From Methylobacterium oryzae (GTDB lineage Bacteria; Pseudomonadota; Alphaproteobacteria; Rhizobiales; Beijerinckiaceae): a DNA stretch of 64,000 nt. Positions 13,646-26,658 of this stretch are shown here, one piece after another. Positions within the stretch are counted from its first letter, which is position 1; each line of letters starts with the position of its first letter. The notes beneath the pieces were generated by a model. It was not told where the DNA came from. It ran no database searches and saw only the letters and a program-made list of their open reading frames with translations. The position numbers and the translations under genes are program-made. The stretch is taken from assembly GCF_021398735.1 (NCBI RefSeq), contig NZ_CP090349.1:4607001-4671000 (forward strand), in the 5' to 3' direction.

Positions 13646-15334
13646 TCAGGCGGCGCGCACGGTCGCGAGGAACCGACCGACCTCGGCGGACAGGTGCTCG
13701 GACTGGCGTGACAGCTCCGAGGCCGCGCCGAGAACCTGGCTCGCCGCCGCGCCGGTCTCCTCCGCGGCGCCGGCCACGCCGGCGATGTTGCTGGTCACCT
13801 CGCCGGTGCCCTGCGCGGCCTGGGTGACGTTGCGGACGATCTCCTGCGTCGCCGCGCCCTGCTCCTCGACGGCGGCCGCGATCGAGGTGGCGACGCTGTT
13901 GATCTCGCGGATGCGCCCGGTGATCGTCCCGATGGCGGAGACCGCCTGACCGGTCACGCCCTGGATCCGGCCGATCTGACTGGAGATCTCCCCGGTCGCG
14001 CGGGCGGTCTGTTCCGCCAGCGCCTTCACCTCGGAGGCGACGACCGCGAAGCCGCGGCCCGCCGCGCCCGCGCGGGCGGCCTCGATCGTGGCGTTCAGCG
14101 CCAGGAGGTTGGTCTGACCGGCGATCGAGGAGATCAGGCCCACCACGTCGCCGATCTTGGCGACGGCGCCGCTGAGTTCCTGCACGAGGGCGCCGGTCTC
14201 GTCCGCCTCGCCGGCGGCGGAGCGGGCCAGCTCGGCCGAACCCTGGACCTGGCGCCCGATCTCCTGGACGGAGGCGCCGAGTTCCTCGGCGGCGGCCGCG
14301 ACGGTGCTGACGTTCGAGGCAGCCTCCTCGGCGGCGGCCGCGACCGCCCCCGACTGCGCCGAGGTCTGGCCTGCCATGGCCGACATGGAGCCGGCGGTGG
14401 CCTGCAGCTCGGTCGCGGAGGCCGAGACCTGCCCGACGATGCCGCCGACCGCCGCCTCGAAGCTGTCGGCCATCTGGCGCATGCCGATCCGGCGCTGCTC
14501 CTCGGCGGCGAGGCGCGCCTGCGCGGTCTCGGCCTCCAGCGCCTTCATCTGGATAAGGCCCTGCTTGAACACCGCGACGGCCGACGCGATGGTGCCAATC
14601 TCGGTCTTCTCGCCCTGATGCGGGATCTCGGCCGACAGGTCGCCGGCGATCAGCGCCTGCATAGGCCGCACCACAGCGGCGATGCCGCGGGTGACGCCGA
14701 GGACGATGATCACGCCCGACAGAACGGAGACCGCCACGGCGAGAGCGATCGCGACGAGGCTCACCGTCCAGGTCTCGTTGAAGACAGCGGTGCCCTGGGC
14801 CTGCGCGGCATCGGCGCCGGCGTTGTTAATGGCGATCAGCTTCTCGAGGGCCTTGGAGGCGGCGCGGCGCGGGATGAGGCCCTTCGTCTCGTAGAGCTGA
14901 TAGGCCTCGGTCTTCTTCCCGGCCCGCGACAGGTCGACGACGTCGTTGCGCACCGCCTTGAAGGTCTGAGATTCGTGGTTGAACGCGTCGAAGAGCGACC
15001 GCTCTTCGGGTGAGCTGAGCAGGCCCTTGTAGACCGCGACCCGGTCGGCCAGCTTCCTGTCGAAGCTGTCCATATCCTTCTCGATGCTGGCGAGCAGCGC
15101 CGGATCGGTCGCCTGCGTGTGCCGCAGGAGAAGGCCGCTGCTGCGGGCGGTCAGCGTGTCGATCTCGCCCAGCGCCCGGATGCTCGGCAGCCAGTTCGTA
15201 TCGATCTCAACCGCCTGCTCGCGCAATTTGCGCGTACTCACGAGCCCGAGCACGCCGAGCCCGATCACGAAAACGGTCAGGACCGAGAAGGCCACGACCA
15301 GCTTTGTACGAATGGAGACACTCTGTAGCGACAC
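13646..15334 (-). CDS. Methyl-accepting chemotaxis protein (transmembrane)
   Basis: A 562-residue chemoreceptor. In order: TM1 (about residues 10-32), a periplasmic four-helix-bundle sensor of 4HB_MCP type (33-185), TM2 (about 190-213), a HAMP segment (about 214-266), and a long signalling coiled coil. The conserved hairpin tip is [18 protein letters not shown]. The start is a GTG at 15334. It is monocistronic, with no che genes nearby, so it would act on chemotaxis proteins encoded elsewhere. The ligand is unknown. Confidence 0.92.
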
Positions 15335-16271: not shown

Positions 16272-17540
16272 TCACACCGCCCGCTTCAGGCCGACCGCAC
16301 CGGCGCCGAGACGCGCCTCGATCACCTGCACGATGTACTCGGCGTCGCGGCCGACCGCGCCGAAGCGGCCCGAGCCCCACGTGTTCAGCCAGGGCAGGCC
16401 GATGAAGGAGATGCCCGCCTCGGCCGTGACGCCGCGCCTGTGCTTCGGCTGGCCGGCGCCGTTGAACACGGACGCGTCGAGCCACCGGAAATCCGGCGCG
16501 AAGCCGATGCACCAGACCACGCTGGCGATGCCGGACCCTTCGAGGGGGAGCGCGGTGACCGGCTCGCCCGGCTCCCAGACCGGCGCGTAGCGCGCCTGGA
16601 CCGGCGCCGCGATGCCGGCCGCGTCGATATGGGCATCGATGGCCGCGTTGATGCCGTTGTAGGTCCGGTCGGCCTGGTCGAGCGCGGGCCGGAGGTTGTC
16701 CCGGAAGCGGAGCGCGCCCGCCGCGTAGTCCTCGAGGACGCCGTAGAGCGCCATGCCCTCCAGGGCGAAGCGGCGCAGGTCGATATCCCGGCCGCCGTCG
16801 CGACCGGTCACGTAGTGGTTGGTGTTGTCCCGGACACCGTCGCGCAGCGGGTGATCGTCGACGGTCTTCTCGTAGTAGCCCATGTCGGCGAGCCACGCGA
16901 CGACGTCGCGGCCGCGGTAGAAGCGGGCGCAGCGGGGTGCGTCGCCCACGGCGAGATGTACCTGCCGTCCGGCGAGATGCAGGTCCTCGGCGATCTGCGC
17001 GCCGGACTGCCCCGAGCCGACGACCAGGACCGCGCCGTCGGGCAGCTGCGCCGGGTTCCGGTACTGATTCGAGTGGATCTGGGTGATCGCGGGCGGCAGC
17101 TTCTCGGCCATGCGCGGGACGATCGGCGTGTGGTAGCCGCCGGAGGCCACCACGATCTCGTCCGCGGTGTAGTCGCCCTCCGAGGTCCGGACCGCGAACA
17201 CGCCGTCGTCGCGCCGCGCCACGCGCGTGACCGCCACGCCCTCGCGGAGCGGCGGCCTCACCTTGGCGACGAAGGCCTTCAGGTAGGCGACGATCTCGTC
17301 CTTCCTCATAAACCCGTCCGGGTCCGGCCCGTCGTAGGGGTGGCCCGGCAGGTCGCACTGCCAGTTCGGGGTGACGAGGCAGAACGTGTCCCAGCGCTGC
17401 GTCGCCCAGGTGTGCGCGGCCGTGTGCTTCTCGAAGACGAGGTGCGCGATGCCGCGCTGCTTCAGGTGGTAGCTGACCGAGAGGCCGGCCTGGCCGCCGC
17501 CGACGACGGCGACGGGAACGTGACGGGTCGTTGTCGTCAT
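16272..17540 (-). CDS. nitH: Nit1C flavin-dependent oxidoreductase (MSMEG_0569 family)
   Basis: A 422-residue FAD-dependent monooxygenase-like enzyme. It has an N-terminal FAD Rossmann motif ([10 protein letters not shown], about 11-20) and a second dinucleotide motif ([10 protein letters not shown], about 167-176), the layout of flavin/Baeyer-Villiger-type monooxygenases. It is the last gene of the Nit1C set; its ATG overlaps the stop of the glycosyltransferase gene by four bases. Nit1C clusters are linked in the literature with nitrile/cyanide assimilation and, in cyanobacteria, nitrogen starvation. The exact reaction of this member is not known. Confidence 0.85.
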
Positions 17541-18718
17541 GGCTGCAACTCCGTGAAGGCTGCCGCGCCGCGGGCGCAGGCGGCGTAGGCGTCGCGGTGA
17601 CGCGTCGCGCAGGCGCGCCAGGAATGGGCGGCCGCGCGCTCCAGCCCCGCCGCCCGCAGGCGGGCGCGGGTCCGCGGTTCCAGCGCCGCCGCCATGGCGG
17701 CGGCGATGCTGGCGGGGTCGGCGGGGTCGACGAACAGCGCGTCGGCCGGCGTCAGGTACTCGGTGAAGGGCGGCCGGTCGGAGACGATCGCCGGCGTTCC
17801 GCAGGCCATGGCCTCCAGCACGCAGAGGCCGAACCCCTCGGTCCAGGACGGGAAGGCCAGCAGGTCCGCGGCCCGGTAGAGCGCCGGCATGTCGGCCTGC
17901 GCGACGGGCCCCGTCTCGATGACGGCCGCGCCGAGGCCCACCTCCAGACCCGCGGCGACGAGGGCCGCGCGGCAGCGTTCGCGGTAGCCGGCGTGGTCGA
18001 GGAGCGAGGCTCCGCCCGCGACGACGAGCTGGGCATGCGGGTGGCGCGTCCGCAGGCGCGCGAACCCCGCGATGATGCCGAGGCTGTTCTTGCGCTCCTC
18101 GAGGCCGCCGACGCTGAGGACGATCGGCCCCGCGCCGAGCCCCCAGCGCGCCCGCAGAGCCGCGTCGCCCTCCGCGGCCGCGGGGCGATAGACCGACAGG
18201 TCGACCCCGTTGCCGACGATCCCGGCCTCGGCGCCGATCGCGTCCCGAATCCAGTCGGCCCACAAGCGGCTGACGCAGAGCAGCCGGCCCGCCTCGCGGA
18301 TCGCGCGGTCCTGCCAGCCCGCGAGGACGGGGTCGGCGAAGCTGTCGACGTGGTGGACGGTCCGGACGAAGCCCGGGATCAGGCGCCGGTGCTTCAGGGT
18401 CGCGAGGGCGTTGCCGCCGATGCCGTCATGGGCGTGGAACACGTCGAAATCGCGGGCCGCCGGGCTCGCGAAGTGGCGCAGGTAGTCGTGGATGCGGGTT
18501 CGTACGAGGTCGGTCGTCCCGCCCGCGACCGGCTCGGCGGCGACCGCCACGGTCGCGCAGGACGCGTCTCGGAAGAACCCGCGGACGGACGGGTCGGGCG
18601 CGTGGACCACCGCCGCGTGACCGAGTTCGCACAGGGCCTCGGCGAGGGCGAGGCAGTGGGCGACGCCGCCGCGCGGGTTGGTGGAGTGGGTCAGGAGGGC
18701 GACGCGCAGCGGCTTCAC
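17537..18718 (-). CDS. Nit1C glycosyltransferase (MSMEG_0565 family)
   Basis: A 393-residue GT-B fold glycosyltransferase. The N-terminal half begins [19 protein letters not shown], with [14 protein letters not shown]. The C-terminal donor-binding half has [11 protein letters not shown] and the GT4 signature [20 protein letters not shown], with the EX7E glutamates. The GTG start overlaps the stop of the AIR-synthase-like gene (GTGA). The set of neighbours identifies it as the Nit1C-associated glycosyltransferase. Its sugar donor and acceptor are unknown; a product that is a glycosylated small metabolite is possible. Confidence 0.85.
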
Positions 18719-19710
18719 GGCGTCGCCCCCAGGCCGTCCCTGCCGCAGCCGATCAGTGGGCCGGCGGCGAAGTCCCACACGATGGCCTCGGCGCCCGAGG
18801 CGTCCCGCACCCGGACGGCCCGGCCGGCGTCGAGGCTCCCGATCCGGGCCGCCGCGATGCCGCGCTCGGCGAAGCGCGCGGTGACGGCCGCCGTGCGGTC
18901 GGGGCGGACGCTGACGAGGTAGCCGAAGCTCGGGAACGCCGTCAGCCAGCGCGTGAGCGGGACGTGGTCGGGCCGCGGGATCGCGTCGAGGTCGATGACG
19001 CCGCCGACGGCGGAGCATTCGAGCAGCATCAGGGCCGTACCGACGACCCCCGCCATGCTGATGTCCTTGGCGGCGCCGGCCAGGCCGTCCTCGGCGAGGC
19101 CCGGCAGCAGGGCGAGATCGCCGCGCAGCCGCGCGCCCGGCGCGCCGGTGGAGGCGTCCCAGTAGGGGTGCGGGTCGCGGAAACGCCCGCGCAGGTCGAT
19201 GGCGGCGACGAGGTCGTCGCCGGGCGAGGCGTCGAAGCTCGTCAGCAGGCGCGGTCCCGCCCGGCCGAGCACCGCGACCGCGAGGTTGCCGGCGGCCGCG
19301 CGGGTGTTGGTGTGGCCGCCGACCACCGGGACGCCGTAGAGCGCGGCGGCGTCGGACAGGCCGGCCAGGATCGGGTCGGCGGTCCCGGCCTCCCGGGCCC
19401 AGAGGGCGTCGACGACGGCGAGCGGGCGCCCGCCCATGGCGGCGACGTCGCTCAGGTTGACCATGATCCCGCAATAGCCCGCGAAGTACGGATCGTCGGC
19501 CACGAAGCTGTCGAGGAAGCCCTCGATGGCCAGCAGCAGGTGCCCGTCGCCGTCGGGGATCGCCGCGCAATCGTCGCCGACCGGCACGGCCGCGTGCCGG
19601 CTCCCGAGCCCGAGCCGCCGCACCACCGCGTCGATGTCGCGCTTGTGGCCGACCCCGCGGGCCTCGCGGATCTGGCGGGCCAGCGCCCGGACGTCGATCC
19701 CGGCGGTCAC
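18715..19710 (-). CDS. nitF: Nit1C AIR synthase-like protein (Sll0787 family)
   Basis: A 331-residue member of the PurM/AIR synthase-related ATP-binding superfamily. The N-terminal half contains VGDDCAAIPDGDGHLLLAIEGF and MVNLSDVAAMGGRPLAVVDAL (both in part), the Gly-rich and Asp metal/ATP sites of PurM-like proteins. Later come GHTNTRAAAGNLAVAVLG and AAKDISMAGVVGTALML. Starts at GTG 19710 inside a GTGA overlap with the acetyltransferase gene. By analogy it would activate a carbonyl or amide with ATP, but no substrate is known. Confidence 0.87.
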   Translation of the reverse strand: MTAGIDVRALARQIREARGVGHKRDIDAVVRRLGLGSRHAAVPVGDDCAAIPDGDGHLLLAIEGFLDSFVADDPYFAGYCGIMVNLSDVAAMGGRPLAVVDALWAREAGTADPILAGLSDAAALYGVPVVGGHTNTRAAAGNLAVAVLGRAGPRLLTSFDASPGDDLVAAIDLRGRFRDPHPYWDASTGAPGARLRGDLALLPGLAEDGLAGAAKDISMAGVVGTALMLLECSAVGGVIDLDAIPRPDHVPLTRWLTAFPSFGYLVSVRPDRTAAVTARFAERGIAAARIGSLDAGRAVRVRDASGAEAIVWDFAAGPLIGCGRDGLGATP

Positions 19711-20249
19711 GCGGCCCTGCGGAAGGTGAGGAGGCCCTGCTCGGGATCGTGCATCGGCGGGTAGGCCGCGAGGTCCGCCTCCATCAGGCGGTGGGGCCGC
19801 CCGTGCAGGTCCAGCGCGTCGAGGCTCTCCCAGTGCAGGGCCTCGAACAGCGCGACGTTGCCCTCCTGGACGTGCGCGAGGAAGCGGGTGCAGCCCCGCG
19901 CGTGGGCCGAGGACACCGCGACCCGGATCAGGCCGGTGCCGAGGGCGGCGGCGCTGCGGAACGGTTTGGCGACGGCGAGGCGCGAGCCCCACCACGTTCC
20001 CGGGCGCGCGCCGTCTTCGTGGATCCGCACGGTGCCGACGACGGCGTCCGCGTCGCCGCCGAGCGTCGAGAGGGCGCAGACCGGGATGGCGTGCGCGTCG
20101 ATCGCGTCGCGATCGTCCGCACTGAAGATCCCCTGCTCCGCGCAGAAGACCTGCCGCCGCAGGGCCGCGCAGGCGCGCCGCTCCCAGGGCGCGACCGCGA
20201 ACTTCACCCGGAAGTGGCTGGGCCGGTACGGCGGAACGGGGTCGAACAT
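19707..20249 (-). CDS. nitE: Nit1C N-acetyltransferase (MSMEG_0567/Sll0786 family)
   Basis: A 180-residue GNAT-like protein. It starts FRVKFAVAPWERRACAALRRQVFCAEQGIF (in part), where the Arg..Arg..F..EQ pattern resembles autoinducer-synthase/GNAT folds. The acyl-CoA region is GSRLAVAKPFRSAAALGTGLI, with VGTVRIHE before it. Its ATG shares one base with the stop of the radical SAM gene (TGATG). The family is named for induction under nitrogen starvation in cyanobacteria. The acyl acceptor is unknown. Confidence 0.85.
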   Translation of the reverse strand: MFDPVPPYRPSHFRVKFAVAPWERRACAALRRQVFCAEQGIFSADDRDAIDAHAIPVCALSTLGGDADAVVGTVRIHEDGARPGTWWGSRLAVAKPFRSAAALGTGLIRVAVSSAHARGCTRFLAHVQEGNVALFEALHWESLDALDLHGRPHRLMEADLAAYPPMHDPEQGLLTFRRAA

Positions 20250-21418
20250 CAGGCCGCCTCCCCCGCGCGCTCGTAGGTGGAGAGCGCCGAGCAGGCGCCG
20301 CACCGGCCGCAGCCGGCCTTGATGTCGGTGGAGCGCAGGTTCGCCCGCCCCAGCATCTCCGCGAGCGGCTTCAGGACGGCGTGCATGAAGTCGTGCCCGG
20401 GGGCCGGATGGCTCTCCAGCGGCGTGCCGGAGATCGGCACGAAGGGCACCACGAACGGGTAGACGCCCATCCCGATCAGCCGGTCGGCCATCGCGAGGAT
20501 CGCCTCCGGCGCGTCGCCGAGGCCGGCGAGGATGTAGGTGGAGACCTGGCCGCGCCCGAAGACCGGGACAGCGGCCGCGAAGGCGTCGTAGTACCGCTCC
20601 AGCGGCACGCCCGCCTTGCCGGGCATGATCCGCGCCCGCACCTCGGGCGTGACGGCCTCGAGATGCATGCCCAGCGCGTCGATGCCTGAGGCCTTCATCC
20701 GCTCGAACCAGCGGTCGTCGTCGGGCGGCTCGCACTGGGCCTGGATCGGCAGGTCGACGGCCGCCTTCACCGCGAAGGCGCTCTCGCACAGGATCGCGGC
20801 GCCGCGGTCGGTGGCGTTCGGCGTGCCGGTGGTCATGACCATGTGCTTCACGCCGTCGAGCAGCACGGCGGCGCGGGCGACCTCGGCGAGCTGCTCGGGC
20901 GTCTTGCGGGCCACCGTGCGGCCGGCCGCCAGAGACTGGCCGATCGAGCAGAACTGGCAGGTCTTCGCGCGGCTCTGGTAGCGGATGCAGGTCTGCAGCA
21001 CCGTGGTGGCCAGCACGTCGCGCCCGTGCAGGACGGCGATCTTCGCGTAGGGCACGCCGTCGAAGGTGGAGAGGGCGTAGAAGCGCGGGCGGCCCGGGAA
21101 GGTGACGTGGCCGACCACGACGCCCGCGTGCTCGATCACCGCGATCCCGTCCGCGTCCGGCGGGCGCACGAGGAAGGGCGAGTCGAAGGCGGCCTCGGTG
21201 TGGACCGGCACCATCACGGTGCGGCCCGCGATGGTCATCGCCTTGTGGTCCGAGGGGCCGGCGCCGCCGCGGCGGCTCGGCGCGCCGGCGCGGCTGTCGG
21301 CGAGCCTAACGCCGCAGGATTGCAACGCGTTGATCAGGCGCTCCGTCGGCATCCCGATCAGGCCCGTCGGGGCCGGCGGGGATATGGGACGGCGCGTCGG
21401 AAGCGGGCTGCTGCTCAT
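20249..21418 (-). CDS. nitD: Nit1C radical SAM protein (MSMEG_0568/Sll0785 family)
   Basis: A 389-residue radical S-adenosylmethionine enzyme. The cluster motif is [14 protein letters not shown], i.e. C-x9-C-x2-C rather than the classical C-x3-C-x2-C. A further cysteine group, CGRCGACS, lies at the C-terminus and could hold an auxiliary cluster. The N-terminal [17 protein letters not shown] is typical of the family. An ATG at 21352 ([17 protein letters not shown]) fits the family N-terminus better and would shorten the overlap with the nitrilase gene. The reaction is unknown; association with the nitrilase suggests it modifies the nitrile's precursor or product. Confidence 0.88.
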
Positions 21419-22382
21419 GGTCGGGGCTCCGGGGGGCGGTCTGCGAACGGGCCGGCCGCTGCACGAAGGCGGCCGGGCGGTCGTCGTGGAGCAGGCTGAG
21501 GAGTTCCGGCCGCGCGTAGTGGCCGACCGAGTCCATCATCCGCTTGCGCTTGGTCACCAGCGCGAGATCCATGTCGGCGATCAGGATGCCCTCGCCCGGT
21601 CCCAGGGGATCGGCGAGGTGCTTGCCCTCGGGCGACACGATGGCGGTGCAGTTCCCGCCGCGGCAGGCGCCGCGCAGGCGCTCGTCCGGGCAGACCTGCG
21701 CGACCTGCGCGTCGGTGAGCCAGCCGGTGGCGTTGACCACGAAGCAGGCCGCCTCCAGGGCGTGGTGGCGGATCGTCACCTCCATCTGGTCGGCGAAGAT
21801 CTGGCCGACGAGGGAGCCCGGGAACTGCGCGGCGTGGATCTCCTCGTGGCCCACCATCAGGGCGTAGCGGGCGAGCGGGTTGTAGTGCTCCCAGCAGGCG
21901 AGCGCCCCAACGCGGCCGACCGCCGTCTCCACCACGGCGAGGCCGGCGCCGTCGCCCTGCCCCCAGATCATGCGCTCGTGGTAGGTCGGCGTGATCTTCC
22001 GGCGCTTGAGCTTCAGGGCGCCGTCCGCGTCGAAGATCAGCTGCGCGTTGTAGAGCGATCCGTGGTCGCGCTCGTTGACCCCGACCACGATCACGGCCCC
22101 GTGGCGCCGCGCGGCCGCGGAGACCGCCTGCGTCGCCGGACCCGGCACGGCGACCGCGCGCTCGTAGAGGCGCAGGTGCTCGGGCCCCTGGAGCGCGGGC
22201 GGGAGAACGAACGAGAAGTACGGATAGTAGGGCACGAAGGTCTCGGGGAAGACCATGAAGCGCGCGCCCTTGGCGGCGGCCTCGTCGACGGCGTTGAGCA
22301 CGCGCTCCAGGGTGCCGTCCGGGCGGTCGAGGTCCGGCGCGATCTGGATCGCGGCAGCCCGCACGATCCGGGTCTCTGACAT
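21306..22382 (-). CDS. nitC: Nitrilase, Nit1C type (Nit6803-like)
   Basis: A 358-residue nitrilase-superfamily enzyme, expected to convert a nitrile to the carboxylic acid and ammonia. The catalytic triad is visible: Glu47 in FPETF, Lys129 in [13 protein letters not shown], and Cys163 in [18 protein letters not shown] is characteristic of true nitrilases rather than amidases. The C-terminal 45 residues are Pro/Arg/Asp-rich and overlap the start of nitD. The adjacent nitB, nitD-F and nitH define the Nit1C cluster, where the nitrilase has been shown in Pseudomonas to be needed for cyanide assimilation. Confidence 0.93.
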
Positions 22383-22451
22383 GGGTGGTCCTCCGGCTGA
22401 GCCAGCGGCTGCGCGCGTCGCGCGCGGCCGCCGGGGGCGTTGGCGCGGCCG

Positions 22452-22934
22452 TCAGACGGTCCAGGTGTCGATGATCACCGCGTTGTCGCGCTTGTGCAGG
22501 AGGATGCAGTCGAGCACGTCGAGGGGGTTGATCATACGAATACCCTCGATGAAGGCCGCCTCGCTGTGCCCGTACAGCGCCTGTGTCGAGAAGCGGCAGG
22601 CGTAGACCTTGCCGCCCTCGGCCATGAACTTCTCGAGCTGGTTGTTGAAGTTGAGATGGCCCGGGAACGCCTCGTCGCCGAGCCGGGGGAACCCGCGCTG
22701 GACCCCGAGGGTGATGCCGGGGCCGTAGAGCAGGATCGAGGTCTCGAAGCCCTTGCGCTGCAGGCGGGTGGCCTGGAGCAGGTTGACGAGGCCGATCGAG
22801 CCCTCGAACGCCACGGTGTGGAAGGTGACGAGGGCCTTCTGGCCGGGTTCGGCCTTCACGTCCTCGAAGACCTTCTCCTCGTAGTCGACCAGGACGTCGC
22901 CCTTCTTGTGCGGCTCGCGGTTCACGGCAGGCAT
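22452..22934 (-). CDS. nitB: Nit1C nitrogen-starvation protein (MSMEG_0572/Sll0783 family)
   Basis: A 160-residue soluble protein with [20 protein letters not shown] and [20 protein letters not shown] (both in part), features of the Sll0783 family (DsrE-like fold expected). In Synechocystis the homologue is strongly induced by nitrogen starvation and affects polyhydroxybutyrate accumulation. It is the first gene of the seven-gene minus-strand Nit1C operon. A GAGGAG ribosome-binding site lies before the ATG. The biochemical role is unknown. Confidence 0.88.
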
Positions 22935-23293
22935 TGCTCACGCTCCTCGATGGTCTGACCGGCGGCAGGGGGGGCTGCGCACGTTCAGACAGTCGGATGG
23001 CAAGCCATGTGCCAGATCGGAGCCGTCAGGAATGCATTCAATAACGCGCCCTGCGATGCATACAATGATACGATCAATTGAGCGAAGTCGATCCGCTCGG
23101 TTCTACTCGACGACGCACAATTCATCATCAGGATTTGCGCACGTCGTCGCCAGATGACGCGCGCTTCGGCGACGAGTATTGTACGCATTGCACGCATCGG
23201 TCGCGCCGTGATAGGCCGTCACGCGCCCGGTACGGCGCTTGCAAGCCATACAATCGATCATTGATCGGTTTTCAGGTCGCGGGTGCTGGACGG
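22935..23293. promoter_or_regulatory. Divergent Nit1C / mocR control region
   Basis: A 359-bp non-coding region separating the Nit1C operon (minus) from the MocR-type regulator (plus). It holds three copies of a C[AG]TACAAT octamer: 23059-23066 and 23247-23254 on the plus strand and 23178-23185 on the minus strand. The two plus-strand copies are each followed within about ten bases by CGATCA. The phrase GCAAGCCAT occurs twice (23000-23008, 23241-23249). These are candidate MocR operator repeats; TACAAT could alternatively be a -10-like element. The region is visibly richer in A/T than its flanks. Confidence 0.5.
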
Positions 23294-24733
23294 ATGAAGG
23301 CTGGCGGGCGGGGAGGACGGTCGGTCGACCGGGGCGACGCGGCCGGTATCTGGACGCCGGACCTCAGGCGCTGGGGCAAGCCCCATTACCTAGCCATCGC
23401 GGACGCGCTGGCGGACGACATCCGGACCGGCCACCTGCTTCCGGGCACGCGCCTGCCGACCCAGCGCGCGCTCGCCGCCACGCTCGACCTCAACTTCACG
23501 ACCGTGTCCCGCGGCTACGTCGAGGCCCACAGGCGCGGCCTGATCGAGGGCCGGGTCGGTCGGGGCACCTTCGTGGTCGACCCGGCGGACGCCGCCCGCA
23601 CCGCTGGGCCAGCCCTTCCCCGGCGGCCGGGACCGGTCGACTTCACCATGAACCTGCCCCCGGAACCCGACCTGCCCGGCCTGCGGGCCCGCATGCGGTC
23701 GTCCTTCGCGGAGCTCTCGGGCGATCTCGCCGACCTCCTGCGCTACCAGGGCTTCGGCGGGACGGAGGCGGACAAGGAGGCCGCGCTGCGCTGGCTCGCG
23801 GGTCGCGGGATCGCGGCGGCGCGCGAGCGCCTGCTGATCTGCCCCGGCGCGCACAGCGCCCTGTCCAGCATCCTGGGACAGGTCGCGCAGGCGGGCGACA
23901 CGATCTGCGCCGAGCGAATCACCTATCCGGGTATCCGGACCCTCGCGGCGCACCGGGGCCTGCGCCTCGTCGGCCTCCCGATGGACCGCCACGGGCTCGA
24001 CCCCGACGCCTTCGCGGCCGCCTGCACGCGGGGAGCGCCGAAGGCCCTCTACCTCAATCCGCTGCTGCAGAACCCGACCACCGCGACCCTGTCCCGTGCC
24101 CGGCGCGAAGCCGTCATCGCGACGGCCCGCCGCTACGCGGTCACCATCATCGAGGACGACGCCTACGCGCGCATCTGCCCGGCACCGCCGCCGAGCTTCG
24201 CCGAACTGGCGCCCGAGATCACCTACTACGTGGCGGGCGTCGCGAAGTGCCTGGGCGCCGGCCTTCGCCTCGCCTTCCTGATTGCCCCGAACGCGCGGGC
24301 CGCCCTGCCCCTCGGCGACGCCCTGCGCGCTGCCACCGTGATGGCGTCGCCGATCTCGACCGCGCTGACGACGCGCTGGATCACGGACGGGACGGCGGAC
24401 GCCATCGTGGATTTCGTCCGCGCCGAGTCGGCCGCGCGCCAGAGCCTCGCGGCCGCGCTGCTGCCCTCCGAGGCCTACGTCGCGGACCCGCACGCCTTCC
24501 ATGTCTGGATCACCCTGCCGGCGGGATGGACGCGCTCGGCCTTCGCCAGCCATGGCCGCGCGGCGGGTCTCGGGGTGGTCGGCAGCGACCCCTTCTGCGT
24601 CGCGGGGACGCCGCCCGAGGCCGTCCGCCTCTGCCTCGGCGGCCCTTCGACCCGGCAGCAGATCGCCCACGGGCTGGAGAGGCTGGCCCACGCCCTGGAC
24701 GGCTCGCCGGCGCTGGCCTCGACCTACATCTGA
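23294..24733 (+). CDS. MocR-type regulator (GntR wHTH fused to class I aminotransferase domain)
   Basis: A 479-residue transcription regulator. The N-terminal GntR winged helix (about residues 28-95) contains HYLAIADALADDIRTGHLLPG and LPTQRALAATLDLNFTTVSRGY (both in part). The aminotransferase-like domain (about 115-470) binds pyridoxal phosphate, with the expected Schiff-base lysine in VAGVAKCLGAGLRL and the aspartate region EDDAYARI. MocR proteins sense an amino compound or PLP and usually control the adjacent divergent genes. Position makes it the probable regulator of Nit1C. The ATG at 23294 is chosen over upstream starts that lie inside the control region. Confidence 0.88.
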   Translation: MKAGGRGGRSVDRGDAAGIWTPDLRRWGKPHYLAIADALADDIRTGHLLPGTRLPTQRALAATLDLNFTTVSRGYVEAHRRGLIEGRVGRGTFVVDPADAARTAGPALPRRPGPVDFTMNLPPEPDLPGLRARMRSSFAELSGDLADLLRYQGFGGTEADKEAALRWLAGRGIAAARERLLICPGAHSALSSILGQVAQAGDTICAERITYPGIRTLAAHRGLRLVGLPMDRHGLDPDAFAAACTRGAPKALYLNPLLQNPTTATLSRARREAVIATARRYAVTIIEDDAYARICPAPPPSFAELAPEITYYVAGVAKCLGAGLRLAFLIAPNARAALPLGDALRAATVMASPISTALTTRWITDGTADAIVDFVRAESAARQSLAAALLPSEAYVADPHAFHVWITLPAGWTRSAFASHGRAAGLGVVGSDPFCVAGTPPEAVRLCLGGPSTRQQIAHGLERLAHALDGSPALASTYI

Positions 24734-25173: not shown

Positions 25174-26658
25174 ATGCTCGGCGCCCTGCGCGGTCGTGAA
25201 GGTCTGGCGGAGAAATTCGATGCCCTCGACCGCTCACAGGCCGTCATCGAGTTCGAGCCGGACGGCACCATCATCACGGCCAACGCCAATTTCCTGACGA
25301 TGATGGGCTACGCCCTGCCCGACATCCGGGGCCAGCGTCACGCCCTGTTCGTGGAGGCGGCGCATCGGGAGACACCCGCGTACCACGCCTTCTGGGACGC
25401 CCTGCGGCAGGGCACCTGCCAAGTGGCCGAGTTCAAGCGGATCGCCCAGGGCGGCCGCCACGTTTGGGTGCAGGCGAGCTACAACCCGGTGCTCGACCGC
25501 GCGGGCCGCGTCGTGAAGGTCGTCAAGTTCGCGTCCGACATCACGGCGCAGAAGCTGCTGATGCTCGACTACGCCGGTCAGATCGCGGCGCTGCACCGGT
25601 CGCAGGCGGTGATCGCCTTCGATCCGGCCGGCACGATCCTAGACGCCAACGGCAACTTCCTCGAGACGATGGGCTATCGCCTGGAGGAGATCCGGGGCCA
25701 GCACCACGGCGTGTTCGTGGACCCGGCCGAGCGGTCGTCCGCCGGCTACCGCGCGTTTTGGGAGGGCCTGGGCCGGGGCGAGTTCAAGGGCGGCGAGTTC
25801 CGCCGCATCGCCAAGGGCGGCCGCGACGTCTGGATCCAGGCGACCTACAACCCGATCCTCGATGCCAGCGGATGCGTCCTGAAGGTGGTCAAGTTCGCCG
25901 CCGACATCACCGCGCAGGTCCGGGAGCGCCACCGGCGCGTCGCGGCGCAGCGGGCGATCGGCGTCGACCTCGACGCGATCGGCACCGCCGTCGAGGGCGC
26001 CAGCCGCCGGACCGCGGAGGCCGTCGACCTCGCCGGGCGGGTTTCCGGCGACATCCAGAGCGTGGCCTCCGGCGCCGAGGAACTGTCGGCCTCGGTGGGC
26101 GAGATCAGCCAGCAGGTCAGCCACGCGGCGCGGATGGCCGGCGAGGCCGTCGAGCAGGCCCGGCACACCAGCACGATCGTCGAGGGCCTGAGCGGGCAGG
26201 CGGCGCAGATCGGCGACGTCGTGACCATGATCCAGGGCATCGCGGCCCAGACCAACCTGCTCGCGCTCAACGCCACGATCGAGGCGGCCCGGGCGGGCCT
26301 CGCCGGCAAGGGCTTCGCGGTCGTGGCCTCGGAGGTGAAGGCGCTCGCCGAGCAGACCGCCAAGGCCACGGATCAGATCCGCGACCAGATCACCACGACG
26401 CAGGCCACCACGCGCGAGGCGGTGTCGGCGATCGGCTCGATCCAGGGCACGATCCGGGCGCTCGACGAGATCTCGGCGGCGATCGCGGCGGCCGTCGAGG
26501 AGCAGTCGGCGGTGACCCAGGAGATCTCCGGCAGCATGCACACGGCCTCCCGCGGGGTCGGGACCATCGCGGGCGGCATGGCGGCGATCGCGCGGGCCAA
26601 CGAGCAGGTCGACGCGGCCACCCGCCAGGTCCGGGAAGCCGCGCGCGCCGTCGGCTGA
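25174..26658 (+). CDS. Soluble PAS-PAS methyl-accepting chemotaxis protein
   Basis: A 494-residue cytoplasmic chemoreceptor without transmembrane helices. Two tandem PAS domains (about residues 18-135 and 140-257) are close duplicates: [21 protein letters not shown] and [21 protein letters not shown] (in part), each ending with a '[13 protein letters not shown]' exit. The signalling domain follows, with the tip [21 protein letters not shown] domains of this type often bind haem or flavin and report redox or energy state. The ATG at 25174 has AAGGGA seven bases upstream; an in-frame ATG at 25153 is possible. Confidence 0.92.

Follow-up and report, generated by a model that had tools for sequence, protein, structure and literature searches.

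The Nit1C gene cluster of Pseudomonas pseudoalcaligenes/oleovorans CECT5344 (nitA-nitBCDEFGH; PMC11049912) and the Nit1C clusters compared by Podar et al. in 2005 (PMC1199592) are close described counterparts of the locus reported here. It is located at positions 16,272 to 24,733 of a stretch of 64,000 nucleotides from Methylobacterium oryzae (contig NZ_CP090349.1, positions 4,607,001 to 4,671,000; referred to as the window). The common order of NitB, NitC, NitD, NitE, NitF and NitH, a divergent regulator and a link to sigma54 connect the locus with the cluster of CECT5344. In contrast, the regulator of M. oryzae is a MocR protein and not the AAA+ activator NitA, an extra glycosyltransferase gene is present and NitG is encoded elsewhere in the genome. 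Gene families and order also agree with those of Podar et al., with the glycosyltransferase placed as in Burkholderia and Rubrivivax, whereas ORF6/NitG is absent from the cluster here. According to that study no conserved transcription factor sites could be identified, whereas predicted MocR boxes and a sigma54-type site were found at the present locus. The task of the cluster was left open by the 2005 description.

Further described systems concern the regulator. MocR proteins carry pyridoxal phosphate (PLP), and EnuR is a PLP-binding repressor which is released by PLP-reactive amino compounds (PMC8739950). In CECT5344 a MocR gene likewise stands beside a nitrilase-bearing, cyanide-linked cluster, the cio cluster with nit4 (PMC8567248, PMC11049912); this regulator was described for cio/nit4 and not for nit1C, and it is likened here by description only.

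We propose a hybrid promoter for the M. oryzae operon, in which MocR as sensor would gate a sigma54 promoter dependent on an activator from another locus. As a reading of the sequence, this is moderately probable. New here are the predicted sigma54 promoter, the candidate MocR operator, a single group of Nit1C-linked MocR proteins and the displaced NitG.

Regulator and control region of nitB

Nit loci were mapped in relatives of increasing distance. The genus sample comprised 111 genomes, with nitB in 58 of them and 61 nit places mapped. From the order sample (397 genomes, 41 above the nitB cut-off) 35 loci outside the genus were mapped, and 14 further loci came from class (8) and phylum (6). 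In addition, 80 named loci were taken, the closest to a NitA-type NitB among at least 560. Because they were drawn in this way the sample is biased and its proportions are no census; some of these loci probably represent genomes already contained in the other samples.

A MocR gene divergent to nitB was found in 107 of the 110 loci mapped across genus, order, class and phylum; one locus is NitA-type and two are cut. The genus contributes 60 of 61 places (two seen only partly at contig ends, the remaining place cut), the order 34 of 35 loci (one cut), the class all 8 and the phylum 5 of 6, where the sixth (L148) has a NitA-like AAA+ activator instead. Conservation of the MocR gene beside Nit1C was the check set by the preliminary description of this DNA, and it holds at each of these ranks. 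The arrangement is not unusual, as had been stated there, but common in the loci sampled outside NitA-type gammaproteobacteria. For the 80 named loci, NitA stands beside nitB in 37 (Pseudomonas, Photorhabdus, Xenorhabdus, Acinetobacter and other gammaproteobacteria), MocR in 35 (Burkholderiales, Vreelandella, Serratia, Sodalis, alphaproteobacteria and others) and neither in 8. Two of these 8, from Marinomonas, have MocR one gene further, and one from Pseudomonas has NitA 7.6 kb away. In the window, MocR takes the position divergent to nitB which nitA holds in NitA-controlled Nit1C. The contrast to the Pseudomonas activator drawn earlier missed half of the control region, as the promoter is still of the sigma54 type.

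Between the ATG of mocR and the ATG of the divergent nitB lie 359 bases. The regulator gene and the predicted sites in this region are:

23294..24733, plus strand: Nit1C-linked MocR, GntR-type DNA-binding domain and aminotransferase fold (PF00392 and PF00155)
23243..23254, minus strand: distal predicted MocR box near the mocR start, 8.0 bits, in a conserved block
23178..23189, plus strand: predicted MocR box in reverse orientation, 10.5 bits, in a conserved block
23067..23078, minus strand: weak predicted MocR box, 4.3 bits, 12 bases upstream of box 1, in a partly conserved block
23055..23066, minus strand: predicted MocR box 1, ATTGTATGCATC, ending 40 bases upstream of the -24 element
23031..23042, minus strand: predicted MocR box 2, ATTGAATGCATT, ending 16 bases upstream of the -24 element
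23000..23014, minus strand: predicted sigma54 -24/-12 promoter TGGCAC-N5-TTGC, exact match, 65 bases before the nitB ATG, conserved in relatives

TGGCAC-N5-TTGC is the consensus of sigma54 promoters, which require an AAA+ activator. It was found at the conserved place in the window. The motif scans covered 94 loci (60 of the genus and 34 of the order; the cut loci L045 and L089 were excluded). The match is exact in 55 and has one mismatch in 5 of the 60 genus loci, and it is exact in 23/34 order loci. The opposite strand of the genus loci gave no exact match and 9/60 within one mismatch; shuffled sequences gave 0/1200 exact matches and 13/1200 with one mismatch. Within 40-110 bases from the nitB ATG, TGGCA[CT]-N5-TTGC is present in all 60 genus loci and in 27/34 order loci. 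It also occurs in 30 of the 35 named MocR-type loci, and M. extorquens AM1 has the same promoter layout. NitA-type named loci carry mostly TGGCA[CT]-N5-TCGC (32/37), and TGGCA[CT]-N5-T[TC]GC is absent from the opposite strand in all 80 named stretches (0/80). Thus, a sigma54-type promoter is common to both types of regulator. The predicted nitB promoter would depend on RpoN and on an activator.

The box motif, ATTGAATGCATA, was learned without preset pattern from the 34 order loci. The boxes are ATTGWATGSAT-like and form direct repeats 12 or 24 bases apart. A score of at least 12 bits was reached in 51/60 genus loci (shuffles 1/180) and in 10/35 named MocR-type loci (shuffles 1/105; median best score 11.0 versus 2.4), compared with 1/37 NitA-type loci (shuffles 4/111; median best score 3.5 versus 3.8). 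Thus, the boxes go with the MocR gene; in distant loci they are weaker. The commonest same-strand spacings include 12, 11, 23 and 24 bases, in the genus also 9 and 187-189. A strict pair, ATTGWMTG-N4-16-ATTGWMTG, had 13 matches in the 111 genomes and none in a backwards-read control. Ten of the 13 precede nitB by 104-129 bases, another genus genome (G047) has one about 140 bases past nitH, and two belong to genomes without nitB; the match at the window locus is the only one in its 6.65-Mb genome.

The distance from the end of the nearest box to the -24 element is 35-41 bases in 47/60 genus loci and 37-38 bases in 15/27 order loci. According to a footprint alignment of 47 of the 60 genus loci, conservation upstream of the sigma54 site concerns mainly the boxes and a short block beside the distal box; a further conserved part is the leader immediately preceding nitB. 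Boxes at a mostly near-fixed distance upstream of the promoter, not covering it, with little else conserved upstream, would also suit a co-activator. Ligand-bound MocR on these boxes would then recruit or position the sigma54 polymerase or the AAA+ partner, and TauR, another MocR protein, is indeed called an activator (PMC5320631). Such a role seems rather unlikely to us. The studied relative EnuR represses (PMC8739950), PMC8567248, relying in part on unpublished data, presents the cio-cluster MocR of CECT5344 as a putative negative regulator, and a domain search gave no AAA+ domain for the nit-linked MocR.

The nit-linked MocR proteins and their possible inducer

With a GntR-type N-terminal domain (PF00392) and an aminotransferase class I/II domain (PF00155) the regulator belongs to the MocR/GabR proteins. 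Lys318, which by family knowledge we take to be the PLP-binding lysine, is invariant in 15/15 aligned MocR rows. The closest named relatives are Methylobacterium proteins.

EhuR/EnuR (EutR) belongs to the same MocR branch; a lysine is found at the expected PLP place in both, and the published consensus ATTGTnnnnnnACAAT resembles the boxes upstream of nitB. However, the window MocR reaches 426.2 bits against the EhuR model, below its cut-off of 480. The nit-linked MocRs examined score 354-454 bits (highest 453.5; five others examined 354-438), whereas 31 rows lie above the cut-off (27 at 562-705 bits, 4 at 482-495). In a quick tree, the root of which serves for drawing only, 62 nit-linked MocRs fall on one side of one branch with a support of 96, and none of 500 label shuffles was as low. 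The group adjoins a 42% paralog of the window genome, a paralog of M. extorquens AM1 and a Sinorhizobium homolog, yet it is separate from these and well apart from the EhuR group. The neighbours of mocR are nitB and a chemoreceptor gene, not ectoine genes. A role as EhuR ortholog with ectoine duties was ruled out by score and tree. The nit-linked proteins also differ by their Nit1C target, the mostly direct repeats and the sigma54-type site, EhuR/EnuR being linked to a sigma70 promoter.

For the tree 64 nit-linked MocRs were picked: the window, 8 of the 60 other genus loci, AM1, 29/35 order loci (one cut locus and five near copies were omitted), 10/13 from class and phylum and 15/37 named. Of these, 62 passed the length and score cut; L088 and L106 failed. 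The EhuR group consists of L282-L307 where passed (25 rows), and the rows L308 and L309, also over the cut-off, were put with the others.

By analogy, the intact Lys318 and the kinship to EhuR/EnuR make an amino-acid-like, PLP-reactive inducer a reasonable assumption. In the NitA-type organism P. pseudoalcaligenes CECT5344 the nit1C proteins are induced by 3-cyanoalanine (PMC8567248). A nitrile-containing amino compound as signal would fit this induction, but for M. oryzae it is a guess. Because of its effect in CECT5344, 3-cyanoalanine would be the first inducer candidate, with caution as that strain is NitA-type; an aminonitrile product would be another.

A second nitrilase-family gene was noticed near the nit-linked MocR at seven loci (L101, L104, L105, L196, L197, L209 and L278) and also in M. 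extorquens AM1. A related MocR is carried by 370 Klebsiella and 30 Escherichia plasmid records; among the matches listed it is about 42% identical.

Proposed control and candidate activators

Since a sigma54 promoter needs an AAA+ activator and MocR is without such a domain, we infer a promoter with two inputs. In the absence of inducer, PLP-loaded MocR would occupy the boxes and keep both nitB and mocR low; the box clusters, about 190 bases apart, may be looped by it. An alpha-amino compound formed from or with cyanide would relieve this by forming an external aldimine with the Lys318-bound PLP. Opening of the sigma54 polymerase would then fall to an AAA+ activator from another locus; NtrC, acting when nitrogen is short, is the simplest candidate. 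NitC would hydrolyse the nitrile to ammonium, and NitG would be supplied from a second locus.

A nitrogen input has a counterpart in Mycobacterium smegmatis, where GlnR binds upstream of msmeg_0572 (PMC4222082); thus, the family also answers to nitrogen control there. In the order (7/34, shuffles 0.8) and in named MocR-type loci (5/35, shuffles 0.4) there is some enrichment of a loose NtrC-type palindrome; this loosest form is found in 0/37 NitA-type loci.

Another candidate is the one full-length NitA-like activator of the genome. It is 54% identical over residues 23-640 to the NitA-type protein of L148 (648 amino acids) and scores 691 bits, the next best activator 260 bits. Its gene (PAS/AAA+; L229:1456-3348) is divergent to the cyanase gene cynS (L229:661-1149), and TGGCATN5TTGC is found upstream of the cyanase. 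Seven genus genomes carry the gene on the nit contig at no more than about 21 kb from nitB, and five of these show similar spacing. If it were the trans activator, cyanide and cyanate use would share one sigma54 activator. We consider this unlikely, as the gene is absent from 22 of the 58 nit-bearing genomes, which keep the sigma54-type site, and of 29 NitA-like loci no more than 14 showed a sigma54-type site on the divergent strand in a rough scan. As general trans activator the protein was rejected, its association with nit1C not being significant (36/22/25/28, p 0.13).

Several findings weigh against the hybrid promoter. On the side of the activator, the NitA-like gene occurs in 36/58 nit-bearing and in 25/53 nit-lacking genomes (Fisher p 0.13). 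Of four simple forms of the NtrC palindrome, the loosest was found in 1/60 genus loci (shuffles 0.2) and the stricter ones in 0/60. Outside the genus, some of the palindrome matches may stem from the box sequences, and in the window the footprint showed no clear separate enhancer in the intergenic region. On the side of the boxes, the score is below 12 bits in 25/35 named MocR-type loci, the nearest box lies outside 35-41 bases in 13/60 genus loci, and the strict pair is missed in 48 of the 58 nit-bearing genus genomes. Since the genus boxes do not overlap the -24/-12 elements, simple occlusion is not evident. The 34 order loci are themselves the training set of the motif, and because the loci are related their counts are not independent. 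In Rhizobium lusitanum (L226) a sigma54 site and strong MocR boxes are present, and no MocR match was found in the 20-kb stretch; the gene upstream looks LysR-type by eye. A literature search found no MocR described at a sigma54 promoter or beside Nit1C, though an unnamed regulog of PMC5320631 may include one. Seven order loci, L080 and six without glycosyltransferase and with divergent MocRs, lack the sigma54 site. Finally, EnuR sites overlap a sigma70 promoter (PMC8739950).

The last two points would agree with an inactive sigma54-like sequence, transcription starting instead at a sigma70 promoter that the MocR boxes overlap, in the manner of EnuR; one subclade has boxes without sigma54 site. 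We hold this for very improbable, as loci of alpha-, beta- and gammaproteobacteria retain TGGCA[CT]-N5-T[TC]GC in a similar position while the sequence nearby varies.

The subclade comprises five of the six order loci lacking both site and glycosyltransferase, together with the class locus L141, and hints at a promoter switch. The boxes remain in these six order loci, all of which are in the training set. Loci observed without glycosyltransferase and sigma54 site are L085, L087, L088, L090, L093, L095 and L141. Loss of the glycosyltransferase as cause of the loss of the site was rejected, as the site persists, with no more than one mismatch, in the class loci L135-L137, from which the gene is absent.

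In a wider form, the hybrid promoter would mean that a distinct PLP-binding MocR subfamily acts directly at a sigma54 promoter, integrates an amino-compound signal with nitrogen control via boxes at fixed distance, and is exchanged with NitA at equivalent loci. For this the chances appear about even.

Composition of the operon and position of NitG

Family calls were made with curated NCBIfam cut-offs for the operon proteins and with Pfam domains for MocR. The operon consists of:

22452..22934, minus strand: nitB, MSMEG_0572/Sll0783 family (TIGR04044, 277.5 bits, cut-off 109.85; the only match of the genome)
21306..22382, minus strand: nitC, Nit6803 family nitrilase (TIGR04048, 544.6 bits, cut-off 502.6; E47, K129 and C163 present)
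20249..21418, minus strand: nitD, MSMEG_0568 family radical SAM protein (TIGR04043, 606.4 bits, match from residue 31)
19707..20249, minus strand: nitE, GNAT acetyltransferase (TIGR04045, 223.5 bits)
18715..19710, minus strand: nitF, sll0787 family, AIR-synthase-like (TIGR04049, 441.8 bits)
17537..18718, minus strand: MSMEG_0565 family glycosyltransferase, accessory and not the published NitG (TIGR04047, 462 bits)
16272..17540, minus strand: nitH, MSMEG_0569 family flavin-dependent oxidoreductase (TIGR04046, 668.2 bits)

All seven proteins score above the curated cut-off of their own family, and all eight genes lie where the preliminary description had placed them. The order on one strand was also given correctly. 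Junctions of 1 to 47 bases were not: the coordinates give four overlaps of 1-4 bases and a gap of 69 bases between nitB and nitC. The overlap of nitC and nitD is 113 bases from the first nitD ATG and 47 bases if Met23 is the start, which may be the real one. For NitC the best solved relative is 3wuy, presumably Nit6803, matched over residues 3-325; E47, K129 and C163 are taken as its catalytic residues. NitD shows a C-x9-C-x2-C radical SAM motif, a cysteine spacing that we assume to be uncommon, and a C-terminal CxxCxxC. By analogy to the cyanide and nitrile use published for Pseudomonas, the genes may form a nitrile-nitrogen operon.

The published seven-gene set includes a small NitG/ORF6 of about 100 amino acids (PMC1199592, PMC11049912), and Podar et al. 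described the glycosyltransferase as an insertion between ORF5 and ORF6 (PMC1199592). In the window the NitB, NitC, NitD, NitE, NitF and NitH families stand in one cluster, and NitG/ORF6 (TIGR04042) is absent from it. The cluster had been called complete with all seven components; the seventh gene counted was the MSMEG_0565 glycosyltransferase. The operon is thus a real Nit1C set minus the in-cluster NitG. Within contig reach, the gene order recurs in the 61 mapped genus places except for NitG and for one place without glycosyltransferase, and it is therefore not a chance arrangement. NitG is in the cluster in 51 places, absent in 7 (the window included) and cut in 3.

The single NitG copy of the genome is located 2.9 Mb from the operon (G000:C1:1690106-1690342; L008; L001:1498-1776), directly behind a second glycosyltransferase of the MSMEG_0565 family. 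Such a remote NitG was found in all 7 genomes without in-cluster copy and in 20 of the 58 nit-bearing genus genomes overall. The remote gene likely made the in-cluster copy dispensable, though relatedness of the genomes weakens the count. Among the loci searched, the remote NitG is nearest to the in-cluster NitG of another genus genome (G067, 91%). Recent transfer of the remote pair was rejected: the 13 loci compared with L008 have alignable flanks, and the pair therefore holds an older, shared position. Membership in the same regulon was also rejected for the 20 loci and a 21st without nitB, as in the 450 bases upstream no box scored more than 8.3 bits and all candidate sigma54 sites had at least two mismatches. 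A degenerate element of the type CGGCA[CT]G..ATGCG (GG-N10-GC) is conserved upstream of most of the 20 aligned pairs.

NitB and NitG co-occur in 58/58 nit-bearing genus genomes, and one of the other 53 has NitG only. Together with the radical SAM protein, the GNAT protein, the AIR-synthase-like protein and the glycosyltransferase, which are kept together and are far more than one hydrolysis needs, this would fit an operon that makes a nitrogen-starvation metabolite. MocR would sense its amino precursor or product, and cyanide use would be a side benefit of NitC. The binding of GlnR mentioned above also speaks for this task, which we regard as possible but doubtful: no product of such an operon is known to us, and a NitC mutant of CECT5344 cannot assimilate cyanide and grows lower on 3-cyanoalanine (PMC8567248). 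This reading concerns the task of the operon and is compatible with the hybrid promoter.

Some loci and neighbours deviate or were noted besides. Genus locus L048 has no glycosyltransferase and keeps NitG between NitF and NitH. At L097 NitH follows directly after NitD, and the stretch gave no match to NitE, NitF, the glycosyltransferase or NitG. Chemoreceptor (MCP) genes flank the operon of the window at 13646-15334 and 25174-26658, the right one with PAS domains.

The findings correct the picture in the literature examined, in which NitA control of Pseudomonas stands for the control of all Nit1C clusters. If true, a MocR protein at a sigma54 promoter would widen the knowledge of both. Furthermore, the dedicated sensor with its predicted operator could serve as a reporter for finding the natural inducer of Nit1C, also in M. 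extorquens AM1, which shares the layout.

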